Source of the DNA: Wohlfahrtiimonas sp. G9077
Lineage (GTDB): Bacteria; Pseudomonadota; Gammaproteobacteria; Cardiobacteriales; Wohlfahrtiimonadaceae
NCBI RefSeq assembly: GCF_002252155.1
Contig: NZ_NEFD01000001.1
Location: 310,001-374,000 of the forward strand
DNA: 64,000 nucleotides
Direction of reading: 5' to 3'
Of the stretch, positions 41,637 through 58,430 are shown in pieces. The notes below the pieces were generated by a model, which did no database searches, was not told the DNA's origin, and worked only from the letters and a program-made list of their open reading frames with translations. A program made the translations under genes and the position numbers. Numbering within the stretch: the first letter of the stretch is position 1; each line of letters opens with the position of its first letter.

Positions 41637-42899
41637 GTGCAGTCGATTAAAGACTTCATTGCAGGTGTGCAGATCTTGTTTGTCGCCTTCGGTGCCATGG
41701 TTTTAGTACCATTACTCACCGGTTTAAACCCTTCAATGGCGCTATTAGGCGCAGGGCTTGGCACCCTACTCTTTCAAATCGTCACCAAACGCAAGGTGCC
41801 GATTTTTTTAGGTTCATCCTTTGCCTTCATCGCACCGATCATCTTCTCCCTACAAACTTGGGGCATGGGTGCCACCATGTTTGGCCTCTTTGCAGCGGGT
41901 TTTATGTACTTTGTCTTTGCGTTGATCATTCGTTGGCGCGGCATTGGCTTGGTCAATACATTAATTCCACCTGTAGTGATTGGTCCTGTGATCATGGTCA
42001 TTGGTTTATCGGTTGCCGTCACTGCCACACAAATGGCCATGGGCATCAGCGGTGGCACACCCATCATGAAAGACACGTTAGCCATCATTTTATCAATCGC
42101 GACCTTTACAGTGACGGTATTGATCACTATTTTTGGTAAAGGCTTATTTCGCTTGATCCCCATTTTAGGCGGGATTTTTGCAGGTTACCTCATCACATTT
42201 GTGTTTGATATCACAGGTTTTTCTGCCAGCATCAATGATGGGCAAAACATTTTACACCTTGAGAACTTAATGAATGCCAGCTGGTTTGCCGTGCCAGAAT
42301 TTCACGCCCCTGAAGTGAACTGGCTTGCTGCCCTCTTTATGTTGCCTGTTGCCATTGCGCCTGCCATTGAACACATTGGCGGCATCATGGCCATTGGCAA
42401 AGTGACCGGCAAAGATTACACCAAAGATCCTGGTTTAGATAAAACCTTAGCCGGTGATGGTTTAGGCGTATGTGTGGCAGGTTTAATTGGTGGCCCACCT
42501 GTGACCACGTATGGTGAAGTGACAGGCGCTGTGATGATCACAAAAAATGATAATCCAAAGATCATGACTTATGCGGCCATTTTTGCCATTGCCATGGCAT
42601 TTATGGGTAAATTCAATGCCTTTTTAAACTCCATTCCATTACCTGTGATGGGCGGCATCATGATTTTGCTCTTTGGTACCATTGCCAGCATCGGTTTAAA
42701 AACTCTGATTGATGCACGCGTTGACATTATGATTCCACGCAATTTAGTGATCATCAGCGCAACATTAATCACAGGCGTTGGTGGTTACACCATCAACATT
42801 GGCAGCTTCCCATTTGCAGGCGTTGGCTTAGCCGCGGTATTGGCCATTGTGCTGAACTTAATTTTGCCGCACCCAAAAGCCGGTGATGCTCAAGATTAA
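41637..42899 (+). CDS. uraA: Uracil permease, NCS2 family (UraA-like)
   Basis: A 420-residue proton-coupled uracil importer. It opens with the UraA block FGAMVLVPLLTGLNPSMALL and continues GTLLFQIVTKRKVPIFLGSS FAFIAPI; PAIEHIGGIMAIGKV and VTTYGEVTGAVMITK carry the two substrate-site glutamates. GTG start at 41637, behind TTAAGGAG. upp is not adjacent. The TTYGE motif continues VTG rather than the common NIG, so the specificity for uracil is likely but not certain. Confidence 0.85.
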   Translation: MQSIKDFIAGVQILFVAFGAMVLVPLLTGLNPSMALLGAGLGTLLFQIVTKRKVPIFLGSSFAFIAPIIFSLQTWGMGATMFGLFAAGFMYFVFALIIRWRGIGLVNTLIPPVVIGPVIMVIGLSVAVTATQMAMGISGGTPIMKDTLAIILSIATFTVTVLITIFGKGLFRLIPILGGIFAGYLITFVFDITGFSASINDGQNILHLENLMNASWFAVPEFHAPEVNWLAALFMLPVAIAPAIEHIGGIMAIGKVTGKDYTKDPGLDKTLAGDGLGVCVAGLIGGPPVTTYGEVTGAVMITKNDNPKIMTYAAIFAIAMAFMGKFNAFLNSIPLPVMGGIMILLFGTIASIGLKTLIDARVDIMIPRNLVIISATLITGVGGYTINIGSFPFAGVGLAAVLAIVLNLILPHPKAGDAQD

Positions 42900-42928: not shown

Positions 42929-42952
42929 AGCTCCCATATGGGAGCTTTTTTT
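42929..42952 (+). terminator. Terminator after the uracil permease gene
   Basis: AGCTCCC (42929-42935), ATAT, GGGAGCT (42940-42946), then Ts. It lies just upstream of the iron operon promoter and isolates it. Confidence 0.92.
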
Positions 42953-42968: not shown

Positions 42969-42974
42969 TATAAT
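42969..42974 (+). promoter_or_regulatory. -10 box of the iron-uptake operon promoter
   Basis: A perfect TATAAT; the matching -35 position falls in the T-run of the preceding terminator and is weak. The Fur sites begin 15 bases downstream, so bound Fur would cover the transcription start. Confidence 0.6.
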
Positions 42975-42988
42975 CGCGAGCATCATTT

Positions 42989-43013
42989 GCAAATGATAAT
43001 CATTGCTATTATC
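42989..43013. promoter_or_regulatory. Double overlapping Fur box
   Basis: Two 19-base windows offset by six bases each match the Fur consensus at 14 of 19 positions: 42989-43007, with the core ATGATAATCATT, and 42995-43013, a perfect inverted repeat GATAAT-N7-ATTATC. Staggered hexamers of this kind are typical of strongly iron-repressed promoters. Confidence 0.88.
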
Positions 43014-43038
43014 AGCCCATCCTCAAGGAAATACGACT

Positions 43039-43599
43039 ATGAAAACATTCTATAAGATGAGTTTAGTCAGCACATTGTTACTCTCAAGTGCTGCATTGGC
43101 CCAAGAGTATCCTGTTGGCCAACCGGTGATTGAAAATGGTATGGAAATCCAAGGCGTGTATCTTCAACCCATCACCATGGACACAGAAGAAGGTCATCAC
43201 CACATGCACCATTTGCCAGCCACTGAATCCGACGTGCATTTAGAAGCGGACATTCACGCGGTTGAAGACAATCCAAATGGTTTTGCCGAAGGTGATTGGA
43301 TTCCTTACTTAGTGGTGGATTACACCATTGAGCGCGTTGATAAAGAAGACAGCAAAGCGCAAAGCGGTACATTTATGCCAATGGTGGCATCCGATGGCCC
43401 ACATTATGGCGATAACTTAAAATTAGATGGCTTTGGTAAATACAAAGTGAACTTTAAAATCTCTCCGCCTTCTTACAATAAAGATGTGATGTTTGGTCGC
43501 CACATTGACAAAGAAACCGGCGTTGCACCGTGGTTTGAACCCTTTGATGTTGAATGGGAATTTGACTATGCAGGCACCGGCCGTAAAGGCAGTTACTGA
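43039..43599 (+). CDS. Periplasmic P19/FtrA-type iron-binding protein
   Basis: A 186-residue high-affinity iron-transport protein of the P19/TP34/FetP group. A signal peptide is cut after ALA (residue 21). The mature domain shows the family pattern QPVIENGMEIQGVYLQPI, a His/Met-rich insert at residues 53-58 (HHHMHH), DVHLEADIHAVE with metal-ligand histidines, and GPHYGDN. Members bind copper and iron and work with an FTR1 permease. The start at 43039 follows CAAGGAA. It is the first gene of the Fur-controlled operon. Confidence 0.9.
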   Translation: MKTFYKMSLVSTLLLSSAALAQEYPVGQPVIENGMEIQGVYLQPITMDTEEGHHHMHHLPATESDVHLEADIHAVEDNPNGFAEGDWIPYLVVDYTIERVDKEDSKAQSGTFMPMVASDGPHYGDNLKLDGFGKYKVNFKISPPSYNKDVMFGRHIDKETGVAPWFEPFDVEWEFDYAGTGRKGSY

Positions 43600-43605
43600 T
43601 CCACA

Positions 43606-43627
43606 AAGAGCGCTCTGGCGCTCTTTT
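43606..43627 (+). terminator. Hairpin between the first and second genes of the iron operon
   Basis: AAGAGCGC (43606-43613), TCTG, GCGCTCTT (43618-43625) then TT: a stable stem with only a four-base T-run. It may end part of the transcripts after the P19 gene or protect its 3' end, rather than being a full terminator. Confidence 0.6.
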
Positions 43628-43647
43628 AACGCTTAAGGAATCTCACC

Positions 43648-43989
43648 ATGACAATCAAACAATGGATCACAATGCTCGTGTGCAGCTTGATGTTGATGCT
43701 GCCCGCCTTTGCCAAAGCAGACAAATACACCGTTGAACTGGAAATGAAAGATGGTGATTTGATTCCTTTGGTGTTGGAAGTGCCGAAAAAAACCAAAATT
43801 CGCATTGAGGTGAAAAACACCGGCACGCAGCCTGCGGAATTTGAAAGCACACAGCTGCGTAAAGAGAAGGTTTTGGCGCCCGGCGCAAAATCTGTCGTTG
43901 TCATAGCCCCTCTCAAACCGGGTGAGTATGAGTTTTTTGATGACTTTCATTTAGATCATCCACGCGGCAAAATTGTTGTTAAAGAGTAA
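43648..43989 (+). CDS. Periplasmic cupredoxin-like protein (FtrB / EfeO N-domain-like)
   Basis: A 113-residue exported protein: signal peptide (MLVCSLMLMLPAFAKA) and a single cupredoxin-fold domain with TVELEMKDGDLIPLVLEVP, FESTQLRKEKVLAPGAKS and the ending EYEFFDDFHLDHPRGKIVVK. This is the domain found as the N-terminal part of E. coli EfeO and as the separate FtrB protein of Bordetella. It likely binds or oxidises ferrous iron, possibly with copper, ahead of the permease. The operon position between the P19-like gene and FTR1 supports this. Confidence 0.85.
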   Translation: MTIKQWITMLVCSLMLMLPAFAKADKYTVELEMKDGDLIPLVLEVPKKTKIRIEVKNTGTQPAEFESTQLRKEKVLAPGAKSVVVIAPLKPGEYEFFDDFHLDHPRGKIVVKE

Positions 43990-44001
43990 AAAGGTTCACC
44001 G

Positions 44002-44844
44002 ATGGGAAACGTATTATTTGTTGTTTGGCGCGAAAGCTTTGAAGCTTTATTGGTCATTGGCATCATCTACAGCTGGATCAAACGCCATCCAGACACCAAA
44101 AATGGCATGAAATTTTTATGGGGCGGCGTTGCTCTTGGCGTCTTGCTCTCTGTGTTGTTGGCCTTGGCCATTTATGGCGTGTTTAGCCACCTTGAGGAGA
44201 TCTATCAAACGCTCTTTATGATTGTTATGGAGGTGCTTGCCTGCATTTTGATTGTGCAGATGGTTTATTGGATGAATAAACATGGCAAAGAGATGAGCCG
44301 CGCCCTCATTCACAACATTGATCAGCAAGCCAAGCAGCATTCATGGTGGGGCGCACTTTTGATCATCGCCATTGCCATTGCCCGTGAAGGCAGTGAAATC
44401 GTTGTGTTTTTATCCGCCATCATCATGAACTTAACGCCAGAAACCACCGGTGCTTTTGCCGCAGAAGTTGGCATTGGTTTAGGTGTGGCTGGCATCACCC
44501 TTGCCCTATTCATTTGGACATCTAAAATCGTGTCATGGCGTTGGTTTTTCACCATCACCGGCATCATGCTGCTCTTTTTAGCGGTGACTTTATTGTTGCG
44601 CGCCTCAGATGAAGTGGCCAACTTACTGCTTGAATATGACATTGATTTGCCAAGCTTCTTTGAAGCCACATTTTGGGACACAAGTCATTTTCTGGATGAT
44701 GGCAAAGGCATTGGCAATTTCTTATCCTCATTTTTTGCCTATCGCGCAGCGCCCACAGGTTTATCCCTTACCGTATTTGCCTTGTATTGGATGATTGTGC
44801 TGGCACTTTTCTGGAGAGGCCGCCGTGCGCACGCTGCTCATTAG
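44002..44844 (+). CDS. FTR1-family iron permease (EfeU/FtrC)
   Basis: A 280-residue inner-membrane iron channel with seven segments. Both iron-binding REXXE motifs are present: RESFE at residues 10-14 and REGSE at 128-132. The layout matches EfeU and FtrC. AAAAGGTTCACCG precedes the ATG, 12 bases after the cupredoxin gene. The next gene overlaps its end by 20 bases. Confidence 0.93.
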   Translation: MGNVLFVVWRESFEALLVIGIIYSWIKRHPDTKNGMKFLWGGVALGVLLSVLLALAIYGVFSHLEEIYQTLFMIVMEVLACILIVQMVYWMNKHGKEMSRALIHNIDQQAKQHSWWGALLIIAIAIAREGSEIVVFLSAIIMNLTPETTGAFAAEVGIGLGVAGITLALFIWTSKIVSWRWFFTITGIMLLFLAVTLLLRASDEVANLLLEYDIDLPSFFEATFWDTSHFLDDGKGIGNFLSSFFAYRAAPTGLSLTVFALYWMIVLALFWRGRRAHAAH

Positions 44845-45721
44845 TCTGGCTTTATTGGCAACATTGACGGTGAGCCATGCCAAAGTGGGTCGTCAAGCCA
44901 TTTTACAATCGGGCGATGGGCCCATCATCATTGCTTTAGGTGACATTCCAACGCCCGTCATCTATCAAGCGGCGATTGATGATTATATGGTGTTTGTCAG
45001 AGCGCGCCTTGAAACAGTGGTCACGGACTTAAAAGCGCTCTCCCTTGCCCTTGAACACAATGATCTGAAAAGTGCCCAAAAAGCATATCTCAGCGCTCAT
45101 TATGCTTATGAAACCATCCGCCCAATTGTTTTGGTGTTTGGTAATATGGATCGCATGATCAACTCGCCGGCAAGCGCCTATTTATTACAGGAAAACGATC
45201 CAAATTTCAAAGGGTTTCATGCGGTTGAATATGCGCTCTTTCATAAGCATGATGTGCATGATGCCCTTCGAGAAAATCAGCGTTTACTGAAATATCTGCG
45301 TGATTTGGTCAAACGTGCGGAGATTGAAACGCTATTTTTACCGAAGCTTGTGCAATCAGCGCCAGATTTTGCAGAGCACATTTTAGAGAACAAATTGTCA
45401 GGGCGGGATCATTATTATAGCGGCGCAGATTTAAGCGAAATCAACGCCAATTTAGATGGCATTGAAGCCATTTTGACTGTTCTTAAACCTCATTTAGATG
45501 ATGCATTTGTTGCCTCTGTTGAAGAAAATATTCATGCCATTCGACAGCAACTCTCGCCCTATGATCAATCGGGCTCATATTTACCCCTTGATCAACTCAC
45601 GCAAACGGATCGCCAACATTTGTATGGCTTGACCTCACAATTGGCCGAAACATTGGCACAATTGCGTGGTTTATTGGCCATCGAGGTGTATCACTCATTT
45701 GATTCAAAGGAGATGCCTTAA
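44825..45721 (+). CDS. EfeO/EfeM-type M75 imelysin-domain lipoprotein-free periplasmic protein
   Basis: A 298-residue periplasmic protein of the M75 (imelysin/EfeO) family without the N-terminal cupredoxin domain, which is encoded separately upstream. A signal peptide (LLISLALLATLTVSHA) is followed by a helical domain with the metal motif HAVE at His132-Glu135 (KGFHAVEYALF) and GRDHYYSGADLSEI. It is thought to bind iron for delivery to the permease. GTG start at 44825 behind GGAGAGG; a TTG at 44795 would read into FTR1 and lacks a signal-peptide start. The stop overlaps the next ATG by one base (TAATG). Confidence 0.87.
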   Translation: MRTLLISLALLATLTVSHAKVGRQAILQSGDGPIIIALGDIPTPVIYQAAIDDYMVFVRARLETVVTDLKALSLALEHNDLKSAQKAYLSAHYAYETIRPIVLVFGNMDRMINSPASAYLLQENDPNFKGFHAVEYALFHKHDVHDALRENQRLLKYLRDLVKRAEIETLFLPKLVQSAPDFAEHILENKLSGRDHYYSGADLSEINANLDGIEAILTVLKPHLDDAFVASVEENIHAIRQQLSPYDQSGSYLPLDQLTQTDRQHLYGLTSQLAETLAQLRGLLAIEVYHSFDSKEMP

Positions 45722-46980
45722 TGTCTCACTCACCTTTTCGCCGTCGTTTATTAAAAGGCTTAGGATTAAGTAGTGCTGCGCTATTGATGAGCTCATCGAT
45801 TGCACACACTGCCCGTCAAACAAAAGACAATCGCCCCTTTCCGGATCACTTTTATGACACAGTGCCCGCTTTTGGCATCCATCAAGCGGGCATCATCACG
45901 CCAGAACCGAAAGAGTCCATTTTTATGGCCTTCAATCTTTTAGTGAAAACCCGTGATGAGTTGGACGCATTATTTCAAAAACTCTCCAAACGCATTGCCT
46001 ATTTAACGGCGCCCCAAACGCTAGATCATGACGATGATCGTCAATTTCCACCCAAAGAATCTGGATTATTAGGCGGACAATTATTGCCCGATCAACTCAC
46101 CATCACCCTTTCTGTGGGCTCATCTCTCTTTGATGATCGCTTTGGTTTAGCGCCCTTAAAGCCCAAGCATTTAATCCCGATGAGCAATTTCCCGAATGAT
46201 CGCTTAGATCCAAAATGGTGCGGCGGGGATTTAGTGGTGCAATTGTGTGCCAATAGCAAAGAGATCCTCATTTATGCCTTAAGGGACATCATGAAGCATC
46301 ATTATCATGACATGGCGCCCCTTTGGAAAATGGACGGCTTTTTACCGGCACGCGACATTGAAACGGGCTCAACGCCCATCAACCTCTTTGGCTTTAGAGA
46401 TGGCACAGGCAATGCACCAAGCAGTGATGAAGCTTTGATGAATGAAATTGTGTGGGTGACAGAGAAAAACAAAGAGCCCGCATGGTGCTTAAATGGTTCC
46501 TATCAAGCCATTCGCCTCATCCGTTTTAACCTTGAATTTTGGGACAGAACGCCCCTTGAAGATCAAGAAAATGATTTTGGACGCATCAAACATTCAGGCG
46601 CACCGATTGGCATGATGCATGAACATGATGACCCACAATTTGCCCTAGATCCACATGGTGATCGCGTATTGTTTGATTCCCACATGCGCCGAGCTGAGCC
46701 GCGTGTGCCACATCGTTACAGCGCACCCCTTCGCCGCAGAAGCTACAGTTATTCGCTTGGCTTAACACAAAGTGGCTTGTTGGACATGGGGCTCATTTTT
46801 GTCTCGTATCAAAATGATCTCAATAAAGGCTTCATTAAAACGCAAAAACGCCTCAATGGTGAACCCTTAGAGCGCTACATTGAGCCCTTTGGCGGCGGTT
46901 ACTTTTTTGCGTTGCCAGGCATGAACAATCCGAATGATTATTTAGGTCAACGTTTATTTGCGGCAGCAAATCAACTCTAA
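45721..46980 (+). CDS. efeB: Tat-exported DyP-type heme peroxidase EfeB
   Basis: A 419-residue dye-decolorising peroxidase exported folded by Tat: twin-arginine motif RRRLLKG at residues 7-13. The heme-site motif GFRDG lies at 224-228 (GXXDG with the distal Asp), and the C-terminal part has HRYSAPLRRRSYSYSLG and LMFISYQ-like DMGLIFVSYQND, typical of the family. In EfeUOB it is proposed to oxidise ferrous iron or handle heme in the periplasm. It is the last gene of the iron operon and is followed by a strong terminator. Confidence 0.93.
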   Translation: MSHSPFRRRLLKGLGLSSAALLMSSSIAHTARQTKDNRPFPDHFYDTVPAFGIHQAGIITPEPKESIFMAFNLLVKTRDELDALFQKLSKRIAYLTAPQTLDHDDDRQFPPKESGLLGGQLLPDQLTITLSVGSSLFDDRFGLAPLKPKHLIPMSNFPNDRLDPKWCGGDLVVQLCANSKEILIYALRDIMKHHYHDMAPLWKMDGFLPARDIETGSTPINLFGFRDGTGNAPSSDEALMNEIVWVTEKNKEPAWCLNGSYQAIRLIRFNLEFWDRTPLEDQENDFGRIKHSGAPIGMMHEHDDPQFALDPHGDRVLFDSHMRRAEPRVPHRYSAPLRRRSYSYSLGLTQSGLLDMGLIFVSYQNDLNKGFIKTQKRLNGEPLERYIEPFGGGYFFALPGMNNPNDYLGQRLFAAANQL

Positions 46981-46986
46981 TGCATG

Positions 46987-47015
46987 AAAAAAAAGAGGCT
47001 TTAAGCCTCTTTTTT
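46987..47015. terminator. Bidirectional terminator between efeB and the thioesterase gene
   Basis: A-run, GAGGCT (46995-47000), TTA, AGCCTC (47004-47009), T-run. Confidence 0.9.
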
Positions 47016-56562: not shown

Positions 56563-56988
56563 TCAAGGCGCATCAATGGTTGTCATAAAACCAATTTTTG
56601 AGAGATTCGCTCGTTTAATTTCAATTAATGTTTTTGCCACTGTGTCATACGGCACACTTTCATCAATGTTTAAGGCAATGATGGGTTCAATGTCGGCATC
56701 TTTTGCTTTAATCGCTTCAAGCGCCGCATGTAAAGTCTCTAAAGTCACCGGTTTTTGATTGAGTAAAATCTCGCCCGTTTTGGTGATTTCAATGGTTTGT
56801 GGTTTTTGTGGTGGCACAGGTGCTTCAATGTTCGATGCCTTTGGCAAAGAGATATCCACCGATTGCGTCACCATCGGTGCTGTGATGATGAAAATCACCA
56901 ATAACACCAACATCACATCAATGAGCGGCACCATATTGATTTCAGCATTTTCTGTGCTTTCGTGTCTGATTCGACCAATGGCCATCAT
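56563..56988 (-). CDS. exbD: Biopolymer transport protein ExbD
   Basis: A subunit of the ExbBD proton-driven motor that energises TonB. 141 residues with one N-terminal membrane segment holding the essential proton Asp (PLIDVMLVLLVIFIITAPM, Asp24) and a periplasmic domain. The first two codons are both ATG; GGAGG stands just before them. It overlaps the exbB stop by four bases (ATGA). Confidence 0.92.
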   Translation of the reverse strand: MMAIGRIRHESTENAEINMVPLIDVMLVLLVIFIITAPMVTQSVDISLPKASNIEAPVPPQKPQTIEITKTGEILLNQKPVTLETLHAALEAIKAKDADIEPIIALNIDESVPYDTVAKTLIEIKRANLSKIGFMTTIDAP

Positions 56989-57668
56989 GCCTCCTTCGCG
57001 TGTCCGCTTAATAATTTGATGAGTTTAAACGCAAAAGTATCCAATCGACCCAATGCCACACGATTGCGACGGGTGAGCCAGTTGTATGCCATCACAGCAG
57101 GAATGGCGACCGCCAAACCGATGCCAGTCATGATCAGCGCTTCCCCCACAGGTCCCGCCACTTTGTCAATCGTACCGGCACCGGTTGCGCCGATGGTGAT
57201 GAGGGCATGATAAATCCCCCAAACCGTTCCAAAAAGCCCCACAAAGGGCGCCGTTGCTGCAATCGTGGCCAATGCGGATAAACCATTTTCCTTTTGCATT
57301 TGAATCTCATCTAACTCAGCGCGCAGCGTAATGGTGATGAAATCTGTCAATGTTGTGGATTTAGCAAGTACCATCGCTTGATCGTCATGATAAAATCCTA
57401 CCGCTTCAATGCCCTTTTCGGTCAATTGTGCATAATCTAAACCAGACAAATGCTTTGCCGTACGGGATAAATCCTTCATGCTCGTTGCTGTATTGAACTG
57501 TTTAAAAAATGCCGCAACTTTATGGCGACGAATCATGCCATTGAAGGCTTTGATGACAATGATGCTCCAAGAGACCAATGACATTACAATTAAAATGCCC
57601 AACAAGGTTTGACTCACGACATCTGCCTGCCCAATGAAATGGGCGAATCCTAATGCTCCGACTTCCAT
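56985..57668 (-). CDS. exbB: Biopolymer transport protein ExbB
   Basis: The pentameric scaffold of the TonB energising complex. 227 residues with three membrane segments and the large cytoplasmic loop; the conserved block IAATAPFVGLFGTVWGIYHAL near residue 135 and GPVGEALIMTGIGLAVAIPAV are diagnostic. AAAGGAATTGT precedes the ATG. It lies 22 bases after tonB, with exbD overlapping its end. Confidence 0.93.
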   Translation of the reverse strand: MEVGALGFAHFIGQADVVSQTLLGILIVMSLVSWSIIVIKAFNGMIRRHKVAAFFKQFNTATSMKDLSRTAKHLSGLDYAQLTEKGIEAVGFYHDDQAMVLAKSTTLTDFITITLRAELDEIQMQKENGLSALATIAATAPFVGLFGTVWGIYHALITIGATGAGTIDKVAGPVGEALIMTGIGLAVAIPAVMAYNWLTRRNRVALGRLDTFAFKLIKLLSGHAKEA

Positions 57669-57690: not shown

Positions 57691-58380
57691 TTAAAAAGCA
57701 TAGTCTATACGATGTCGGATGGCGATCGCTTGACCATTTTCTCGATACGGGCGAATTTTTACGCCATTTGCCGCAGTCAATGCCGCATCATCAAGCATTT
57801 TGTGCCCGGAGGATCGCTCAAGTACCACTTTTGTGGGCACGCCTTGTGCATTGAGCTCAATGATGACAACGCTATTGCCACGCAAGCCCTGACGATGGGC
57901 AGCACGTGGGCGCTTTGGCTCAGGATTTTTCAAAAATTCAATGCGACTCGCTGCAACGAGCGGGCGACCGCCTTGTGTGCGCGTCACTTGTGCCTGAGTC
58001 GGTTTGCTCGCTGTTTTGACAACGCGCTCAACCGCTTTTGGCTTTGGTGTGGGTTTAGGCTTTGCCTTCACCACTGGTGCCTCAATGGGCACTACAACAT
58101 CCGCGGCTTTTACTGCTGTGTTTACCGCCATCATCTGAACCATCTCTTCATCATGCGGATGTTGTAATGTTTCTTCGATCACCTCTTCAACTTCAGCAAT
58201 GCTCTCCATATGGTCGCCAAATGTCACCATCTCAAGATCAATCGTGCCCGCAACACTTGCTTGCACCGCAAGACTTTTGGGCGATAACATCGTGGCAAGT
58301 GCGGCTGTGTGCAGTGCACCCACCCCGGCAATCAAAAGTAGATTCATCATTGCTGTTGTGTGAAAAGTTTGCTTATTCAT
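57691..58380 (-). CDS. tonB: Energy transducer TonB
   Basis: Transfers inner-membrane energy to outer-membrane siderophore and heme receptors. 229 residues: one N-terminal membrane anchor (about residues 11-32), a Lys/Pro-rich spacer (KAKPKPTPKPKAVE) and the C-terminal TonB domain with GNSVVIIELNAQGVPTKV, DDAALTAANGVKIRPY. The start at 58380 (MNKQTF) is preferred over 58392. A Fur box and a good promoter lie just upstream. The anchor is unusually rich in Ala/Met and lacks the textbook SHLS sequence. Confidence 0.9.
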   Translation of the reverse strand: MNKQTFHTTAMMNLLLIAGVGALHTAALATMLSPKSLAVQASVAGTIDLEMVTFGDHMESIAEVEEVIEETLQHPHDEEMVQMMAVNTAVKAADVVVPIEAPVVKAKPKPTPKPKAVERVVKTASKPTQAQVTRTQGGRPLVAASRIEFLKNPEPKRPRAAHRQGLRGNSVVIIELNAQGVPTKVVLERSSGHKMLDDAALTAANGVKIRPYRENGQAIAIRHRIDYAF

Positions 58381-58411
58381 AACCATTATCAAAAAATGTT
58401 GATTAACGTAT

Positions 58412-58430
58412 GAGAATTATTATCATTTAA
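58412..58430. promoter_or_regulatory. Fur box upstream of tonB
   Basis: Read on the minus strand the 19 bases match the Fur consensus at 14 of 19 positions, with the uninterrupted core AATGATAAT. It overlaps the -10 region of the promoter below, so iron-bound Fur should block tonB-exbB-exbD. Confidence 0.85.

Follow-up and report, generated by a model that had tools for sequence, protein, structure and literature searches.

In the window analysed here, a 64-kb stretch of Wohlfahrtiimonas DNA, five genes encoding P19, a cupredoxin, an FTR1 permease, an M75 protein and EfeB follow one another in that order (43039–46980, plus strand). We consider it likely that this operon encodes a Fur-repressed, siderophore-independent Fe2+ importer of the FtrABC type in which an EfeM/EfeB module takes the place of FtrD. 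The computational results obtained here concern its gene content and order, the descent of its parts, the lack of a detectable FtrD, the Fur boxes and residue changes in the encoded proteins.

Layout and control region of the operon

The gene order given in the initial annotation was recovered in full, and each of the five products matches its expected family (Table 1). The description of the genes as tightly coupled holds for part of the operon: the FTR1, M75 and EfeB reading frames overlap or nearly touch, the best start of the M75 gene (chosen from sequence) being a GTG inside the end of the FTR1 gene, but P19 and the cupredoxin are separated by a 48-bp gap containing a hairpin. In the source genome, Fur, FeoB, FTR1, P19 and M75 each gave a single match; this and the other genome-wide statements are based on searches of genome collections. 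The FTR1 permease is 93% identical to that of Wohlfahrtiimonas chitiniclastica, the closest relative of the source genome.

Table 1. Positions of the operon genes and of the signals around them in the window
Feature	Position	Strand	Remarks
Upstream permease gene	41637–42899		Closed by hairpin and T run at 42929–42951
Terminator-like hairpin and T run	42929–42951	+	3′ of upstream permease gene
TATAAT, possible −10 element	42969–42974	+	Read from sequence; clear −35 absent; promoter scan lists none here
Two overlapping Fur-box-like 19-mers	42989–43013	.	42989–43007, 14/19; 42995–43013, 15/19
P19/FtrA periplasmic protein	43039–43599	+	PF10634, 2.7e-62
Hairpin, 9-bp stem and short T run, in P19/cupredoxin gap	43605–43627	+	Possible partial terminator
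Cupredoxin, FtrB (Cup-II) type	43648–43989	+	Cupredoxin_1 PF13473, 7.8e-33
FTR1 permease, FtrC type	44002–44844	+	PF03239, 5.1e-31
M75-only (EfeM-like) periplasmic protein	44825–45721	+	M75/imelysin PF09375, 7.2e-15
EfeB, Tat-exported DyP-type haem peroxidase	45721–46980	+	TIGR01412, 446.7 bits against a cut-off of 428
Terminator-like hairpin at 3′ end of operon	46990–47014	+	

The double Fur box proposed earlier is present as two overlapping 19-mers before P19, and it recurs: nearly all relatives carry a Fur box at a similar position upstream of P19, with 13–18 of 19 matches. A Fur consensus scan allowing at most three mismatches gave no match, because the best site reaches only 15/19. Only six Fur-like 19-mers in the window match at 14 or more positions; two of them are the P19 pair and two lie before a tonB-exb-like operon. 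The latter pair (58372–58430) is located just before a minus-strand tonB-like gene (57691–58392), which is followed by an exbB-like gene (56985–57668), both named from reading the sequence only. Control of the five-gene operon by Fur is likely, to judge from the boxes before P19 and the single fur match in the genome.

A hairpin 3′ of the P19 gene is found in most operon loci and is rare in FtrABCD loci. Across operon members, the 65 bases past the P19 stop codon fold well below shuffled sequences (median z −3.45, with 81% of values below −2), whereas neither the other operon junctions (medians −0.8 to +0.84) nor, in FtrABCD loci, the junction behind P19 (median z −0.28) folds better than shuffles. 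This comparison with shuffles was adopted because a strict terminator pattern, which recognized the hairpin after P19 in 18 of 42 loci against 1.2 expected by shuffling, overlooked stems that have bulges or long loops. In many operon members a T run stands behind the stem, resembling an intrinsic terminator. The hairpin may act as a partial terminator, with an excess of P19 over the other operon proteins as a likely effect.

Descent and metal sites of the components

FTR1 has the two REXXE motifs that had been read from it, RESFE at residue 10 and REGSE at residue 128. In the FTR1 tree, the 23 operon members sampled all fall into a single clade (100/99) that is nested among FtrC proteins, is sister to Denitrificimonas FtrABCD (100/100) and stands well apart from EfeU; FTR1 therefore groups with Ftr and not with Efe. 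The cupredoxin likewise falls with FtrB, a 100/100 branch dividing it from the EfeO N-domain. Among solved structures it is closest to Brucella FtrB (8VUK, E 4.5e-24), it carries the Cup-II (FtrB) signature ExE, RKEKV and DDxH, and its residues E64, E66, E73, D98, D99 and H101 correspond to E84, E86, E93, D118, D119 and H121 of Brucella FtrB, so that all six FtrB metal-site residues described (PMC11966278) are present. The initial annotation had regarded the cupredoxin and the M75 protein as the two EfeO domains split into separate proteins. We reject this reading on the FTR1 and cupredoxin trees and on the residue evidence: both proteins lie among those of FtrABCD systems, with EfeU and the EfeO cupredoxin domain distant, and the M75 protein has EfeM architecture. 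The operon appears instead, on the evidence of its sequences, to be an FtrABC core from which ftrD is missing and to which efeB and a gene for an M75-only protein have been added.

P19 residues H67, M115, H122 and H155 align with the copper ligands of Campylobacter jejuni P19. Residues E69, D71 and D119 align with its Mn site (residues as given in PMC9174327), and in sequence alignment both the copper and the iron/Mn site residues are present, as they are in FtrABCD P19. An additional His/Met-rich loop, EEGHHHMHH (residues 50–58; window 43186–43212), occurs in varying form in other operon members and in similar form in Denitrificimonas P19, and is mostly missing from FtrABCD- and FetM-linked P19s.

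The M75 protein is a stand-alone protein with the expected HAVE (HxxE) motif, at residues 132–135. Operon M75 proteins form a clade of their own (100/100), outside both EfeO and EfeM of the Pseudomonas syringae type. In P. syringae EfeM, Site III consists of Tyr82, His126, Glu129, Glu189 and Asp190, and Site IV of Glu90, Glu93, Glu97, Asp103 and Asp107, the latter fully conserved in the published alignment (PMC9174327). Site III is largely kept in the operon proteins: Y82, H126 and E129 are found in 42 of 42, position 189 is E or D, and D190 is replaced by N in 39 of 42. By contrast, Site IV is broken in all 42 through E93R, D107N and replacement of E97 (R99, N113 and L103 in the window protein), with E90 and D103 (or E) retained. 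These substitutions suggest that operon M75 no longer holds iron at Site IV, a loss that weakens any claim of an Fe3+-carrying role like the one put forward for EfeO/EfeM. An AlphaFold model of M75 built from the single sequence was poor (mean pLDDT 57.8) and was left out of the analysis.

EfeB falls within the EfeB family, on one side of an 86/93 branch. The earlier reading of this protein as a Tat-exported DyP peroxidase agrees with its TIGR01412 score above the cut-off and with an N terminus that begins with the Tat-type motif FRRRLLKG, from which export is predicted.

FtrD, which the initial annotation had reported as lacking, is absent from the locus, and a search found it neither in the source genome nor in any of three Wohlfahrtiimonas genomes; positive controls in three genomes were all recovered with E < 1e-130. 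Among loci containing P19, the cupredoxin and FTR1, M75 and EfeB are present in 46 (about 43 distinct) and FtrD in 26 (20 distinct), and in no locus do FtrD and the M75–EfeB pair occur together; the first two counts are not a frequency, since most operon loci were retrieved through the resemblance of their FTR1 to that of the window, and the exclusion may represent very few events, because the operon loci form one clade.

Distribution and probable horizontal movement

A search for the five-gene order, among loci gathered by FTR1 similarity and from plasmid records, recovered it in about 40 other genomes and plasmids. Carriers are found in the Ignatzschineriaceae, Morganellaceae, Vibrionaceae and Neisseriaceae and include Wohlfahrtiimonas, Proteus, Providencia, Moellerella, Xenorhabdus, Arsenophonus apicola, Snodgrassella, Photobacterium and Vibrio campbellii. 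The operon of the bee-associated A. apicola lies on a mobilizable plasmid (L004:4010–8013), where RefSeq annotates each gene, and Snodgrassella, another bee symbiont, is a second bee-associated carrier. The proposal that the arrangement be described as its own type stands in that the order is consistent, but it is not unique to one genome, being inherited in several genera and probably moved horizontally.

The five-gene order is uncommon. Of the genomes sampled, 20 of 299 in the Pseudomonadota and 22 of 369 in the Gammaproteobacteria have P19; among the neighbourhoods read from sampled P19 genomes, part of which had short flanks, only the window's own has the five-gene order, the others being mainly FtrD-linked or FetM–P19. 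P19 was not found in any of 12 sampled genomes from other genera of the same family as Wohlfahrtiimonas, and of six Wohlfahrtiimonas genomes two lack it. The concatenated tree places Wohlfahrtiimonas, a member of the Ignatzschineriaceae, beside two genera of the Morganellaceae, Proteus and Xenorhabdus (91/98); monophyly of the Morganellaceae is rejected (AU p 0.00085). The conflict between operon tree and taxonomy indicates that the operon has probably moved between lineages, and together with the patchy occurrence of P19 it fits horizontal transfer.

Proposed mechanism, alternatives and relation to known systems

By analogy with Ftr and Fet3–Ftr1 systems (PMC11966278, PMC9174327), P19 (FtrA) would capture Fe2+, which would be oxidized at copper together with the cupredoxin FtrB, and the resulting Fe3+ would cross the membrane through the REXXE permease FtrC. 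The M75-only protein, with HxxE kept and the acidic Site IV lost, and EfeB would occupy FtrD's place, the haem peroxidase contributing either oxidizing power from H2O2 or iron release from haem. The substrate, the copper chemistry and the performance of FtrD's job by EfeB and M75 are what we infer. Within this reading of the operon, we regard the predicted replacement of FtrD by EfeB as roughly evenly balanced between right and wrong: the mutual exclusion of FtrD and the M75–EfeB pair is compatible with EfeB as redox partner in FtrD's role, and EfeB may have another job, in haem iron release or H2O2 defence.

That EfeB and M75 form a separate haem-iron or peroxide-defence module, which shares only Fur control with an FtrABC importer that works without FtrD, so that EfeB is no substitute for FtrD, seems to us rather unlikely. 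Some bacteria encode ftrABC without ftrD (PMC11966278), EfeB-type proteins have been described either as peroxidases or as proteins that bind haem or porphyrin (PMC9174327), and the Site IV-less M75 shows the lowest conservation among the five proteins (36–44% identity to other genera against 51–76% for the other four); however, the five genes have been kept together in order across several families and probably moved jointly, and FtrD and the M75–EfeB pair never share a sampled locus. A more far-reaching proposal is that the operon represents an FTR1 importer class of its own: an H2O2-using haem peroxidase, docked by the Site IV-less M75, would re-oxidize the copper proteins in place of the FtrD electron path, with the partial terminator putting P19 in excess; we hold this to be doubtful, slightly more so than a separate module. 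An EfeUOB system with EfeO split into cupredoxin and M75, to which P19 was added, would account for the presence of EfeB and the M75 protein, but it is very improbable: FTR1 and the cupredoxin descend from FtrC and FtrB, the trees contradict it, and FTR1 scores 124 bits on the EfeU model against a cut-off of 255; the permease is not of EfeU type. Chance neighbourhood in one genome can practically be dismissed, the same order being found in so many other genomes and plasmids of four families.

An FtrABC-type importer with an EfeM/EfeB module in place of FtrD would be a natural exchange on an Ftr core and offers a direct route to testing the role of each part; the M75 clade, lacking one of two proposed metal sites, adds to the same test, and Proteus, Photobacterium and the bee symbiont Snodgrassella are culturable carriers. 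We found no published description of the five-gene order in open-access full texts. Rajasekaran et al. 2010 reportedly deals with EfeO-cupredoxins and may picture such gene contexts.

The hybrid of Ftr and Efe parts originally proposed is borne out, with an FtrABC core by descent and M75 and EfeB of Efe type. Like FtrABCD of Bordetella, Brucella and Burkholderia, the operon has P19 followed by a Cup-II cupredoxin and then FTR1, its FTR1 and cupredoxin nest among Ftr proteins and its P19 retains the metal residues; unlike FtrABCD, it has the M75-only protein and EfeB instead of FtrD, a ferredoxin-like membrane protein, and its P19-gene hairpin is missing from nearly all sampled FtrABCD loci. 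With EfeUOB and EfeUOB/M (Escherichia coli, P. syringae) it shares the peroxidase EfeB and an HxxE-bearing M75 protein, but its permease is not EfeU, its cupredoxin is not EfeO, a fused cupredoxin–M75 protein is absent and, in contrast to EfeUOB/M, its M75 lacks an intact Site IV. The EfeUOB/M arrangement also occurs outside Pseudomonas, on a Paracoccus plasmid where an M75-only gene follows EfeUOB (L048:4986–9166). P19–cFtr1 and FetMP systems (C. jejuni, E. coli F11) likewise combine P19 with an FTR1 permease, preceded by a Fur box (PMC6083913); their FTR1 is long, however (about 640 aa in sampled loci), they have no cupredoxin gene, and in C. jejuni the downstream genes encode ABC-type and thioredoxin-like proteins (PMC6083913). 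Another pairing of Efe-like with P19 parts is seen in a genome of the same taxonomic order, where an FTR1–DyP–M75 cluster stands back to back with a FetM-like FTR1 and P19 (L193:30–6506). Each family thus has one or more defining features that the operon lacks: FtrD in the case of FtrABCD, EfeU and EfeO in that of EfeUOB. All its parts belong to known families and are annotated individually in RefSeq, and the five-gene combination is a variation on iron importers already known rather than a new type of system.
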